Origin: an uncultured Clostridia bacterium
GTDB lineage: Bacteria > Bacillota > Clostridia > Oscillospirales > Acutalibacteraceae
NCBI GenBank assembly: GCA_947598155.1
Contig: CANQFC010000003.1
Span: 1 to 64,000, forward strand
Reading direction: 5' to 3'
Length of the DNA stretch: 64,000 bases
Of this stretch, positions 1 to 31,273 are shown one piece after another (within the stretch, counting starts at the first letter, position 1; each line of letters opens with the position of its first letter). Below the pieces are notes generated by a model. That model was not told the origin of the DNA. It saw nothing but the letters and a program-made list of their open reading frames with translations, and did no database searches. A program made the translations under genes and the position numbers.

Positions 1-99
1 AAGCGAAAAATTACACCGCAAAGGCACACTTTTTAATTTTTCCTCGGCTTTGTATCAAAATCTGCATGATTATATCATGTTCCTAATGATTTTGATACA
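1..99 (+). repeat. Cassette-array repeat, copy R1 (cut by window edge)
   Basis: First of five copies of an imperfect repeat that separates the small genes at 1-3035. It holds the shared block acaccgcaaaggc followed by an inverted repeat: tgtatcaaaatc is answered by gattttgataca, a 12-bp perfect stem across about 25 nt. The upstream part lies outside the window, so the array probably continues to the left. From base 67 onward it is identical to copy R3, because both border the same GNAT cassette. Confidence 0.8.
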
Positions 100-153
100 T
101 ACTGCCATATCGGCGGCGGAGAATTTGCCACTTATTTTTTCGGTAAATGGAAA

Positions 154-576
154 TTATAGTCGCTTAATGAATCTTTTTTGATCTTTTTCGTCAAGAAAAT
201 CCATTGCTCGATAAAACTTATGTGCCGCTGTTCTTTTCATTCCCGAATTAAGTCTTAACATATCAATACCATTATTTCTTGCCCACTGTTCCGCCTCGTT
301 CAAAAGCTCTTTGCCAAATCCACAGCGTTGGTAATCCTCGGCAACGGCTAAACCCAATATATTTGCCATGTCCTCACAATAAAGAACCTTATACTTTTCT
401 ACATGAACAAAGCCTACAATTTGGTTGTCAGTTTCAACAACAAATACTGCTTCCCTGCTTTCATCTAATTCATTGATCCTCGCCTCGATAAAACCTCTTT
501 CACATTCATATCCCAGTTCCTCAATGCAAATTTTCCTAACTTCTTCACAATCGGTAGATTTAATTTTTCTGACCAT
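154..576 (-). CDS. GNAT-family N-acetyltransferase (cassette copy 1)
   Basis: Small acetyltransferase that probably moves an acetyl group from acetyl-CoA to an amine; the substrate is unknown. The fold is seen in the N-terminal VRKIKSTDCEEVRKI strand-helix, the central strands around QIVGFVHVEK, the acetyl-CoA pyrophosphate loop region AEDYQRCGFGKELL and the C-terminal AAHKFYRAMDF. The reading frame can start at 618, but I chose the internal ATG at 576 (140 residues) because GGAGG lies 6 nt before it and the upstream ATG has no Shine-Dalgarno sequence. A possible -10 (TATACT) lies near 621-626 on this strand, so the cassette may carry its own promoter. A second, identical copy is at 1702-2124. 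Confidence 0.85.
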   Translation of the reverse strand: MVRKIKSTDCEEVRKICIEELGYECERGFIEARINELDESREAVFVVETDNQIVGFVHVEKYKVLYCEDMANILGLAVAEDYQRCGFGKELLNEAEQWARNNGIDMLRLNSGMKRTAAHKFYRAMDFLDEKDQKRFIKRL

Positions 577-618
577 AATATCCTCCGGCAAATCTCGGTC
601 TGTTTCTGTTATCTTCAT

Positions 619-650
619 CCAAAGTATAACACAAAAGTGTGAAAAAATCT
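619..650 (-). promoter_or_regulatory. Possible cassette-borne promoter for GNAT copy 1
   Basis: On the minus strand TATACT (621-626) stands 17 nt after a weak -35 (TAGATT). A small inverted repeat, CAC-ACTTTT-GTG, fills the spacer. The same bases occur before the second GNAT copy (about 2167-2198). The -10 is good and the -35 poor, so this is tentative; if real, the cassette does not depend on read-through. Confidence 0.35.
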
Positions 651-666
651 ACGACTGCCGCACCTG

Positions 667-789
667 GCAACGCAACTTATACACCGTAAGCGGAAAAATT
701 ACACCGCAAAGGCGCACTTTTCAATTATTCCTCGGCTTTGTATCAAAGTCTGCAAGATTATATCTATGTTCCTGCTGATTTTGATACAA
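667..789 (+). repeat. Cassette-array repeat, copy R2
   Basis: Begins gcaacgcaacttatacaccg, contains two direct acaccg(c/t)aa motifs, then an inverted repeat whose arms are about 20 nt (tttgtatcaaagtctgcaag against cctgctgattttgatacaaa, three mismatches) around a 14-nt AT-rich loop. Nearly identical to R4; both follow a GNAT cassette. It has no open reading frame of its own. Confidence 0.85.
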
Positions 790-862
790 AACAATTCTTA
801 TCACCGTTTAATCGTCAGTAAGCAGCGCTTCTATTTGCTCTTTTCAGCAAACAGTTAATTTA

Positions 863-1426
863 TCATTTCACAAAAGGAAATTTCCCTTCAATAAAATGTC
901 GATACTCCGGTTGGTCAATCGCCTCTTCATATTCTTTTTGCATGGTTCTTTCGATCCATTCCAATTGCGTCTGACTTGCGTCCTCATATCGTGAAACAGA
1001 AAGAAGTCCTTCCTGTTCCGCCGCAAGGATTGCCTCATAAGCATCCGGCACAAACTCGCAAGATTTTACAAGTACAGGATTGCTTGATGTCACCGCATCG
1101 GGTATCTGTATCTGAAAGCCAGAATCAGTCACCTCTTCTGCCGCATAAATATATCCGGATACCCCTTTATATGTATCTACCAGTGCGTTTGGGTAGTATT
1201 CTTCTATACGTTGTGTGCCGTCTTTATGAAAGCCATAAGAACCCCATTTCGTGCATTTCCCGAAAAAGTCAAATGCGGTTTCTTTACAATACTTTTCAAT
1301 GGCGTTGCTAAGATAAACCAGTACATTTTCACGCTTCTTTGAAAAGTAAATAAGCGGTATGCCATGATTGGAAATGCGCGGCTCCAGTAATTTGATGCCG
1401 CCTATAGGCGAAGCATGAAAATACAC
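863..1426 (-). CDS. Conserved hypothetical protein of the YFHASP type
   Basis: Soluble protein of about 187 residues with no signal peptide or membrane segment. Its opening VYFHASPIGGIKLLEPR, followed by PLIYFSKKRENVLVYLS and KWGSYGFHKDG, matches a small family I recall from Firmicutes genomes without a known function. The YFHASP-to-YFSKKR layout faintly resembles ADP-ribosyltransferase-like folds, but I see no complete catalytic triad and do not assign one. The frame runs back to 1549, into repeat R3. I prefer the GTG at 1426 because GGAGGT precedes it by 7 nt and the family seems to begin there; an ATG at 1441 is the alternative. It is the second cassette of the array. Confidence 0.7.
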   Translation of the reverse strand: MYFHASPIGGIKLLEPRISNHGIPLIYFSKKRENVLVYLSNAIEKYCKETAFDFFGKCTKWGSYGFHKDGTQRIEEYYPNALVDTYKGVSGYIYAAEEVTDSGFQIQIPDAVTSSNPVLVKSCEFVPDAYEAILAAEQEGLLSVSRYEDASQTQLEWIERTMQKEYEEAIDQPEYRHFIEGKFPFVK

Positions 1427-1526
1427 TCCATTTACCTCCATAAAATGCCGATAAACCGGGCGAATATGACCGTATCTCAATAAGTCGTACTGCAAAATCG
1501 TGAATAAATCTACCTCTATTAACCCT

Positions 1527-1648
1527 GCAACGCAATTTATACACCGCAAGCGGAAAAATTACACCTCAAAAGCATACTTTTCAATTATTCCTCGGCTTTG
1601 TATCAAACTCTGCAAGATTATATCATGTTCCTAATGATTTTGATACAT
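1527..1648 (+). repeat. Cassette-array repeat, copy R3
   Basis: Same architecture as R2: gcaacgcaatttatacaccg at the left, duplicated acacc motifs, then the tgtatcaaa / tttgataca hairpin. Its left half differs from R1 at several bases, while from 1615 rightward it is identical to R1. The boundary of the duplicated cassette therefore falls inside the hairpin. Confidence 0.85.
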
Positions 1649-1701
1649 ACTGCCATATCGGCGGCGGAGAATTTGCCACTTATTTTTTCGGTAAATGGAA
1701 A

Positions 1702-2124
1702 TTATAGTCGCTTAATGAATCTTTTTTGATCTTTTTCGTCAAGAAAATCCATTGCTCGATAAAACTTATGTGCCGCTGTTCTTTTCATTCCCGAATTAAG
1801 TCTTAACATATCAATACCATTATTTCTTGCCCACTGTTCCGCCTCGTTCAAAAGCTCTTTGCCAAATCCACAGCGTTGGTAATCCTCGGCAACGGCTAAA
1901 CCCAATATATTTGCCATGTCCTCACAATAAAGAACCTTATACTTTTCTACATGAACAAAGCCTACAATTTGGTTGTCAGTTTCAACAACAAATACTGCTT
2001 CCCTGCTTTCATCTAATTCATTGATCCTCGCCTCGATAAAACCTCTTTCACATTCATATCCCAGTTCCTCAATGCAAATTTTCCTAACTTCTTCACAATC
2101 GGTAGATTTAATTTTTCTGACCAT
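1702..2124 (-). CDS. GNAT-family N-acetyltransferase (cassette copy 2)
   Basis: Identical protein to the one encoded at 154-576; I find no base difference between 67-664 and 1615-2212. The same internal ATG with a strong GGAGG is chosen as start. Two functional copies in one array, with a different gene between them, point to a recent cassette duplication or to recombination between repeats. Acetyl-CoA-dependent acyl transfer is inferred from the GNAT fold; the substrate is unknown. An assembly artefact is less likely, because the flanking repeat copies differ at several bases. Confidence 0.85.
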   Translation of the reverse strand: MVRKIKSTDCEEVRKICIEELGYECERGFIEARINELDESREAVFVVETDNQIVGFVHVEKYKVLYCEDMANILGLAVAEDYQRCGFGKELLNEAEQWARNNGIDMLRLNSGMKRTAAHKFYRAMDFLDEKDQKRFIKRL

Positions 2125-2213
2125 AATATCCTCCGGCAAATCTCGGTCTGTTTCTGTTATCTTCATCCAAAGTATAACACAAAAGTGTGAAAAAATCTAC
2201 GACTGCCGCACCC

Positions 2214-2336
2214 GGCAACGCAACTTATACACCGTAAGCGGAAAAATTACACCGCAAAGGCGCACTTTTCAATTTTTCCTCGGCGTTGTATCAAAGTCCG
2301 CAAGATCATATCTATGTTCCTGCTGATTTTGATACA
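2214..2336 (+). repeat. Cassette-array repeat, copy R4
   Basis: Closely matches R2, including gcaacgcaacttatacaccg and the right arm cctgctgattttgataca. A few substitutions (ggcgttgtatcaaagtccgc) set it apart, so it is not a perfect duplicate. It separates the second GNAT cassette from the NUDIX cassette. Confidence 0.85.
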
Positions 2337-2351
2337 ATCAGATAGACGCAA

Positions 2352-2834
2352 CTACGGTTGTAATTCCTCCATGAATTTCTGCATACGTTCGGTTACCAAT
2401 TCGCTTTCTTTCATAGAGATGAGTTCATTTCTGCTCACCCACTTATACGCAATGGTTTCCCCATCCTGCAAGATGATACTGTCTTTTTTACAGTCCGTCA
2501 CACAAAGAAATTCAACATACAATGTATTATAGCCTCTCACTCGTCCTATTTCAGTCAAATGATCGGATTCAATTCCGGTTTCTTCCCGCAGCTCTCTCAC
2601 CGCACATTCCAAAGGAGTTTCTCCGCATAATGCCGAACCTCCCGCGGTAGCCTCCCACATACCGCCGAAATGTTTGCGTTTGTCACGTTGCATCAGCAAA
2701 TAGCTTCCGTCGTTATGTTTCACGATGATCTCGCTAACTAAATGAAAAAGCCCATCGGGAATAGGTTCTTCCCTTATCAACATCATATTGCTGATTTTAT
2801 TGAAATCTTTATCATAAGCATCCCATATTTCCAT
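2352..2834 (-). CDS. NUDIX hydrolase
   Basis: NUDIX-domain pyrophosphohydrolase of 160 residues, cytoplasmic. The Nudix box is complete: a glycine (GGSALCGET) leads through the spaced glutamate to RELREETGI, which supplies the metal-binding glutamates. The N-terminal part (EIWDAYDKDFN, then GLFHLVSEIIV) resembles the branch related to isopentenyl-diphosphate isomerase and to NUDIX proteins annotated as acting on ADP-ribose or oxidised nucleotides; the substrate cannot be read from sequence. The start is supported by GGAGGGG 8 nt upstream. Last complete gene of the cassette array, in the same orientation as the others. Confidence 0.9.
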   Translation of the reverse strand: MEIWDAYDKDFNKISNMMLIREEPIPDGLFHLVSEIIVKHNDGSYLLMQRDKRKHFGGMWEATAGGSALCGETPLECAVRELREETGIESDHLTEIGRVRGYNTLYVEFLCVTDCKKDSIILQDGETIAYKWVSRNELISMKESELVTERMQKFMEELQP

Positions 2835-2944
2835 ATACTTTTCCCCTCCATGTAAATACTTACGTCAGTCAAATGCAGTTCTTGCTATCCGGTCAATCAT
2901 ATCTCACAAACCGAAATAAACAGTCTTTCACCTGTTCCCGGCAC

Positions 2945-3034
2945 ACATTTTACACCGCAAGCGGAAAAATTACACCGCAAAGGCGCACTTTGGGGTTTTC
3001 CTAGGCTTTGTATCAAGCTCTACAAAATTATATC
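2945..3034 (+). repeat. Cassette-array repeat, copy R5 (one hairpin arm missing)
   Basis: Carries the left part (ttttacaccgcaagcgg, aaaggcgcacttt) and the first hairpin arm (ctttgtatcaagctcta), but the matching right arm is absent. At about 3034 the sequence switches into an unrelated hairpin also found at 31173-31201. It therefore marks the right edge of the cassette array. Confidence 0.75.
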
Positions 3035-3043
3035 CATTTTCGG

Positions 3044-3072
3044 AATCAGCGGGGATTTGGTCTCCGCCGATT
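3044..3072 (+). repeat. Conserved-loop hairpin, copy A
   Basis: aatcagcgg and ccgccgatt form a 9-bp stem with one mismatch around the loop ggatttggtct. The same 11-nt loop sits in a stem of different sequence (aatctgtgg / ccactgatt) on the minus strand at 31173-31201. The shared sequence also extends into cattttcgg just upstream. Function unknown; no gene is read across it with certainty. Confidence 0.6.
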
Positions 3073-3122
3073 TAAAGGCAGATAAAATCCCGCATTAAAA
3101 AATATCGGTCGGTTTTATTGAT

Positions 3123-31123: not shown

Positions 31124-31252
31124 CTTACCCCGTCATTAAACGTGGCAAGGCGCGGTGTAAACCGCGCTGAGAAATCAGTGGAGACCAAATCCCCACAGAT
31201 TCCGAAAATGTCTCCCGCCTTCTGAGGCGGGAGACATCTCTTGCCTAAGTTA
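31124..31252 (-). repeat. Structured repeat, copy B (contains the conserved-loop hairpin)
   Basis: Inverse of copy C at 29007-29086 at both ends. Inside it lie three stems: gcgcggt/accgcgc, the conserved-loop hairpin at 31173-31201 (minus-strand loop ggatttggtct, as at 3053-3063) and gtctcccgcct/aggcgggagac, an 11-bp stem. It ends just before the stop of the FemAB gene at 31274, so minus-strand transcripts would run into it. Confidence 0.75.
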
Positions 31253-31273
31253 TATTCTATTTGCTATATAAAA

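Follow-up and report, generated by a model that had tools for sequence, protein, structure and literature searches.

Gene cassettes with phage-type attachment half-sites in an uncultured Clostridia bacterium: probable cargo of prophage serine integrases

Introduction

What brings four small genes, all read from the same strand, into a row in which one palindromic repeat separates each gene from the next? The question is raised by the start of the stretch of DNA analyzed here (hereafter the window), 64,000 nucleotides from the beginning of contig CANQFC010000003.1 (C3) of the assembly GCA_947598155.1 (G000), an uncultured Clostridia bacterium of the Acutalibacteraceae. A preliminary description of the window had likened this row to an integron gene-cassette array, and had proposed either an integrase-free cluster of that type or a new repeat-bounded cassette system in Clostridia. 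The data came close to the second proposal. As far as sequence comparison can tell, the units are quite probably non-autonomous mobile gene cassettes that are moved in trans by prophage serine integrases.

Results

Genes and repeats of the array

The four cassettes span about 75–764, 763–1624, 1623–2312, and 2311–3034 of the window. Their genes, all on the minus strand, alternate with the repeat, as the preliminary description had stated and as open reading frames (ORFs), Pfam, and a repeat search confirmed. Cassette 1 carries a gene for a GNAT acetyltransferase of 154 aa (154–618), cassette 3 a GNAT gene whose product is identical to it (1702–2166), and cassette 4 a gene for a NUDIX hydrolase of 160 aa (2352–2834); the GNAT and NUDIX assignments were supported by Pfam. 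The gene of cassette 2 (863 to about 1441) encodes an uncharacterized "YFHASP" protein of 192 aa from its ATG. An upstream start is possible, and the mechanical ORF from a TTG extends to 1549, into the repeat. This protein gave no match in a Pfam scan, and it has a relative with 86% identity in a cassette at another locus (L119). Copies of the repeat of 103 nt were found at 662, 1522, and 2210, the latter two being 91 and 95% identical to the first, together with 44-nt blocks in four or five copies. When one palindrome-bearing copy was folded as DNA, 3 of 200 shuffled sequences folded as well on one strand and 1 of 200 on the other. The right limit of the array is 3034. Contig C3 begins at window base 1, and the array is therefore cut by the assembly: its left part is missing, and the left end, which a leftward extension had been suggested to locate, was not found.

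The anatomy of a unit was derived from an alignment of about 60 repeat copies. Read on the plus strand, a cassette consists of TC, a left half-site of 25–26 bp, usually one gene on the minus strand, a conserved leader of approximately 70 bp with the two ACACCG motifs noticed earlier, and a right half-site of 26 bp that ends in TC. The left half-site is TATGTTCCTGCTGATTTTGATACAA, with a variable inner part, and the right half-site is TTTGTATCAAActcTGCAAGATTATA. The palindrome of the repeat is composed of two half-sites from adjoining cassettes, 26-TC-26 bp and 54 bp in total, with GA on the other strand. Array ends carry one arm only, and divergence starts directly after TC. At the junction cut by the contig start (1–101), the right-end leader and half-site occupy 6–76, the TC core 75–76, and the left half-site 77–101. 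The second junction (667–790) comprises the leader with its two motifs (667–736) and an attP-like palindrome (737–790; core 763–764). The third (1527–1648) has its palindrome at 1597–1648, with a right arm 1 bp short and the core at 1623–1624, and the fourth (2215–2338) at 2285–2338, with the core at 2311–2312. The right end of the array, on the attR side (2941–3034), has the leader and the left arm only, with its core at 3033–3034. The hairpin attributed to all five copies was accordingly present as a full TTTGTATCAAA..TTTGATACAAA palindrome in four and as a left arm in the fifth, because the array ends there. Likewise, the repeat start given as gcaacgcaac was found in the copies at 667 and 2215; that at 1527 reads gcaacgcaat, no such start is present in the last copy, and the contig start truncates the first. 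In gene orientation the 5′ end of a cassette reads GATATAAT. A consensus scan placed no promoter at any of the junctions, and shuffled sequences gave more promoter-like sites than the real one; given this outcome a promoter at the cassette 5′ end is mentioned here as a remark only.

An attP-like junction

TC marked the boundary in 42 of the 47 junction-type and 54 of the 63 flank-type ends that were left once duplicates, stretches that were too short, and matches below 20 of 28 positions had been dropped. The boundary was placed where an end best matched a consensus whose own last two bases are TC. The 26-TC-26 junction has the layout of the attP of a large serine recombinase, a site of about 50 bp in which two inverted half-sites of some 25 bp each surround a 2-bp core. 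A crystal-structure study of an A118-like integrase (PMC3783163) gives attP half-sites of 25 bp, a geometry of 25–26 bp per half-site and 50 bp, and a zinc-domain motif TTTAGTATC. The outer TTTGTATC of our half-site resembles this motif, which is no more than a lead.

This layout bears on the integron, in which the units would be attC cassettes of a tyrosine integrase (IntI) that was lost or never present. Like integron cassettes, which usually combine one gene with one recombination site, the units mostly hold a single gene, share one orientation, have a hairpin each, stand in arrays, carry accessory cargo, and are exchanged across species. However, the integron integrase model TIGR02249 scored above cut-off in none of the 26 repeat-bearing genomes, and its weak matches occurred in all 26 and likewise in all 14 control genomes. 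Nor does the crossover fall at an attC R box (GTTRRRY): judged without an attC-finding program, the boundaries lie at TC/GA, midway through the palindrome. Neighbouring cassettes each supply one half of this palindrome, the cassette ends match those of a phage with serine recombinases, the att site is of the serine type with a 2-bp core, and no fixed platform gene was found. The doubt raised earlier about a classical integron was thus well placed, and an integrase-free cluster of integron type does not fit either; on the TIGR02249 result and the crossover position we reject this explanation and give it next to no credence.

Ends shared with Ca. Heliusvirales prophages

Three records of a phage collection matched the repeat, all of them Candidatus (Ca.) Heliusvirales from human feces, and each match stopped at TC. 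These records are 47.6–65.0 kb long and have recombinase genes near the right end. PV036426 bears both ends, the left at base 52 and the right 53 bp before the end of the record, and its host flanks, joined with a single TC, give one short open frame. Two overlapping genes for large serine recombinases, A and B, lie upstream of the right end. They were recognized by Pfam for A and B of PV036420 and B of PV036426, and by tblastn for A of PV036426 and B of PV036416. Compared with known structures, the B recombinase matched 3g13 best and the TnpX structure 2mhc weakly. The cassettes have the same left and right ends as these phages, the same TC core, and in G000 the same genomic repeat as target, but they carry no recombinase, replication, or packaging gene. 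The transposons Tn5397 (TndX) and Tn4451 (TnpX) also have a large serine recombinase; they are conjugative or mobilizable transposons and not gene cassettes.

B-type relatives were present at 470 loci of IMG/VR, and the best 80 (66–93% identity in the best segment) were scanned. The right-end core lay downstream on the recombinase strand in 16 of these 80 and on the other strand in one. The full leader with the core occurred at six of them, all with at least 75% identity, and below 75% only the bare core was found. An exact scan of IMG/VR yielded one stretch with the phage-type core and none with the cassette-type core. A recombinase followed by a right end was also encountered in three metagenome-assembled genomes (MAGs): on contig C2 of G208 (A, 56%; B, 94 and 78% in two frames), C84 of G209 (B, 88%, partial), and C52 of G449 (B, 71%, partial), the last with a cassette-type core.

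The same ends were used to judge whether the units could be transposons of the IS110/IS1111 type, which employ a bridge RNA, or other transposons with a dinucleotide target, the leader being a guide RNA. A dinucleotide core and inverted ends would suit such elements, and G000 has one IS110-family gene, but no cassette-type end lies in the 9 kb around it, the same leader and ends adjoin serine recombinases in phages, and the window contains no Rfam family at gathering score. On the element ends we reject this explanation as very improbable.

By eye, a prophage left end (L165, 1–400) was seen to hold an inverted leader motif (TTGCGGTGTA..GGAATAATTAAAAGG) inside the element, so that such motifs are inverted at the two ends of the prophage. 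Separately, three adjacent genes for large serine recombinases were observed in G000 at C5:193677–197687 (L051); they probably belong to another integrative element. As a candidate for the cassette recombinase this trio was rejected, being at most 34–41% identical to the phage recombinases and having no matching ends in 19.9 kb.

Empty and filled targets

The flank of the array (3035–3073) is the right half of a target that has been filled. This target is one copy of a palindromic repeat of approximately 140 bp that is interspersed in G000, where BLAST placed it at 29 positions, the query included. Only short partial matches to it were found in 38 other genomes of the genus. Copies of this interspersed repeat (e.g., L196–L211) stand 140 bp apart at C5:125.8 kb. 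Twenty-three empty copies were aligned, with the common reading GGCGGGTTC^CATTTTCGGAATCAG, and TC was counted by eye at the site in 16 of them; the empty copy in the window (31136–31272, minus strand) has AGA in place of the TTC or CTC of most aligned copies. Filled sites were the window array (right side only), a cassette on C1, and a cassette on C5, the last with a diverged left half of the repeat and a right half-site 1 bp short. A prophage left end at C7:19344 sits after the left half of another copy. With the array, single cassettes, and a prophage end at one position of the repeat, cassettes and prophage use a common target within this genome. At other places, several left flanks read GGG before TC.

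The C7 element is of the Heliusvirales type: its helicase is 85% identical to that of PV036413 and 61% to that of PV036426, and three ORFs nearby have the lengths and the order of the exonuclease, small protein, and polymerase genes of PV036426, which is the only basis of that match. This left part of a prophage (C7:1–19344; L192, L034, and L010) is truncated by the contig start. Its left end adjoins genes that look Vsr-, methylase-, and Dcm-like by eye, and close to it tandem units of about 189 bp (L010, 5100–5700, by eye) repeat the 3′ part of an adjoining tRNA-like sequence.

Empty targets contain the core once and filled targets twice, as seen in the copies of the interspersed repeat and at L157. 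There, a two-gene unit interrupts a methyltransferase gene; when its sequence was taken out together with one TC, the whole joined stretch of 802 bp (267 codons) was open through ..FEERF|DVILTNPPFG.. Besides L157, the repeat sites, and the phage site, the other joined flanks gave no decisive frame. These sites also weigh on the idea that homologous recombination between repeats shuffles the arrays and that the att-like ends are no more than a trace of history. The identical pair of GNAT cassettes within a single array and the long conserved leaders would agree with it, whereas TC boundaries at unrelated insertion sites, the agreement of empty sites, and the continuous frame of L157 call for site-specific insertion, and we consider homologous recombination improbable as the explanation.

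Many right ends interrupt methyltransferase genes at a codon that starts with the GA core. Pfam assigned methyltransferase, RlmL, or MmeI domains to 14 of 17 flank frames (weakly and below cut-off for methyltransferase in L155, L124, and L082), and three type III-like frames had no Pfam match; because the 17 were picked from the 63 flank-type ends for their open frames, these figures are not a rate. Some of these 17 right ends are probably prophage ends, and one is that of the cassette unit L157. Interruptions of methyltransferase or restriction-modification genes were noted at L040, L089, L091, L092, L103, L104, L133, L136, L138, L117, L149, L150, L155, and L159, with L089, L149, and L159 assigned by motif only. 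The right ends of the phages PV036416 and PV036420 likewise interrupt methyltransferase or restriction-modification genes. The interrupted Asp codon we take to belong to motif I or IV of the methyltransferases (DPxxGSG or DPPY), the other half of the gene not having been seen. The recombinase family may target conserved methyltransferase codons.

Distribution, cargo, and sharing of cassettes

A search of related genomes with a model of the repeat had been recommended. A sequence model of the right end matched 24 of 394 genomes of the order, that of the window included, in 13 of 168 genera and seven families, with some prophage ends among the matches. Scanning 84,980 species genomes for an exact pattern returned 50 stretches, and all 50 records had the isolate prefix "Lapin" (French for rabbit), which we infer to denote rabbit-gut MAGs. 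The scan pattern being exact, other communities may hold variants.

A script listed 41 units, and 39 remained, some with two genes, after two that repeated neighbouring spans were removed by hand; the script missed junctions with short arms, such as those of the GNAT units of the window. Units were 0.4–2 kb long, mostly 0.6–1.1 kb. The longest ORF was on the minus strand in 37 of the 39, and the two exceptions were an antisense ORF of a broken NUDIX gene and a Fic-like gene (named by eye). The latter unit (L122, 5620–7203) has the same ends in opposite orientation, and after it a second unit begins, whose left-end sequence is the same. Forty cassette proteins fell into 27 clusters. Pfam recognized GNAT, NUDIX, HAD hydrolase, FMN reductase, and helix-turn-helix (HTH) plus GyrI-like domains in the scanned cargo, and weakly PNPOx and TfoX_N; several proteins had no clear family, among them the product of the "DUF3795-like" cassette, which had no Pfam match and whose label is our presumption. 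No recombinase or transfer gene was found among the longest listed ORFs of the units, which were not subjected to an exhaustive domain-library search.

The same cassettes recurred in different genomes. The GNAT149 cassette showed 99.2% DNA identity over 520 bp between families f1 and f14, and the DUF3795-like cassette 97.1% over 544 bp between f1 and f26. G001 and G002, two species of the genus of the window, have a common array locus with the same left and right flanks and differ by whole cassettes. The order in G002 is GNAT161, HAD, GNAT149; in G001, where the array is divided between two contigs, GNAT161 is preceded by an extra DUF3795-like cassette and, on the second fragment, GNAT149 by a NUDIX cassette. 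No clean orthologous empty site was found for this locus, as G037 keeps the right flank with another left gene. The plasmids searched gave no match. The preliminary picture was therefore upheld: the array is repeat-bounded, its cassettes all point the same way and carry accessory enzymes, and cassettes turn over from one genome to another. Single units do exist, yet the same cassettes recur in different arrays and places, so the repeat is not one scattered in single copies without turnover.

This recurrence also bears on the possibility that the units are decay products of Heliusvirales-type prophages, relics resembling cis-mobilizable elements (CIMEs), and the arrays accretions of such relics with no dedicated cassette traffic; the gene beside the right end would be what remained between attL and attR once the phage was deleted. 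Units and prophages do share one type of end, the genes that a prophage has between its recombinases and its right end are oriented like cassette genes, and one recombinase-bearing contig has a single small gene in that position. On the other hand, no cassette protein turned up at the recombinase loci searched, with the exception of one weak HTH match, and the same cassettes occur at 84–99% DNA identity in different genomes and orders, which points to repeated mobility and not to independent decay. We regard this origin by decay as rather unlikely.

Discussion

Proposed mechanism

If the units are cassettes moved in trans, a prophage recombinase would act on cassette circles at attB sites, the two half-sites of a cassette being joined in the circle to form the 54-bp attP-like palindrome with its central TC. 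A recombination directionality factor would permit excision. The leader with its ACACCG repeats may serve as an accessory site, a role proposed because the prophage end carries the leader too. Arrays could grow when a circle recombines at an att site that is already occupied, or when a circle of several cassettes integrates; insertion at an existing attL is suggested by the extra left-edge cassette of G001. Serine integrases normally work one way, on attP and attB only, so array growth needs an extra assumption, and it is the weakest step of the mechanism.

Several further observations weigh against recombinases of the phage type as the movers of these cassettes. The inner part of the left half-site is variable, and some junctions fall short by 1 bp or more, departures that a strict attP would not be expected to tolerate. 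Among the best 80 IMG/VR loci, 64 had no recognized core on the recombinase strand at E ≤ 1, including L214 and L215 with 84–85% identity, although some contigs end early. The B gene of G208 lies in two frames. B-type relatives of at least 56% identity were found in only 4 of the 26 genomes searched, and two of these loci, on C1 of G422 (63%) and C34 of G449 (56%), had no matching ends in the stretches examined. Apart from the weak HTH match, cassette proteins were not found near the recombinases searched. The assembly of the window contains no close recombinase, the nearest being 34–41% identical, and the half of the C7 prophage expected to carry one is missing from it. The source of the activity would therefore be the missing part of that prophage, another phage, or the past.

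Relation to known systems and significance

CIMEs and their tandem accretion are the nearest known kind. Two accounts (PMC7563491, PMC5704250) describe CIMEs as elements that keep att ends but lack an integrase, stand alone or in tandem, and rely on the recombinase of another element; as decay products of integrative and conjugative or integrative and mobilizable elements; and, for the classical ones of one study, as 1.2–13 kb long with cargo genes. Retention of att sites without integrase or transfer genes also holds for our units among their longest listed ORFs. Unlike CIMEs, the cassettes mostly carry a single gene in one orientation, share a leader, and have sites of phage serine recombinases; they recur across families at dispersed targets and draw on a shared gene pool. 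The pseudo-SCC (staphylococcal cassette chromosome) elements of staphylococci, with att ends and no integrase of their own, are presumably similar. No description of serine-integrase gene-cassette arrays was found in open-access PMC titles and abstract openings.

A broader proposal, to which we give even weight for and against, is that the integron has a counterpart here that works with serine integrases. Cassettes of mostly one gene, each with a phage-type attP site, would form a standing pool; Heliusvirales-type phages, whether resident or infecting, would supply the recombinases that exchange them across families of gut Clostridia, and the interspersed palindromic repeats of the host itself would be their docking sites. 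If the proposal is true, the system would occur in numerous genomes of one gut community or more, one genome would offer dozens of empty docking sites, and the multi-target serine integrases would come with proposed attP and attB sites. Integrons are the most familiar means by which bacteria swap single-gene cassettes, which would then have a second route of swapping, built on phage serine integrases and mechanistically unrelated to integrons. Such a route would be a concrete source of cross-family transfer of small accessory genes, and would tie the temperate-phage load of these bacteria to their cassette traffic.

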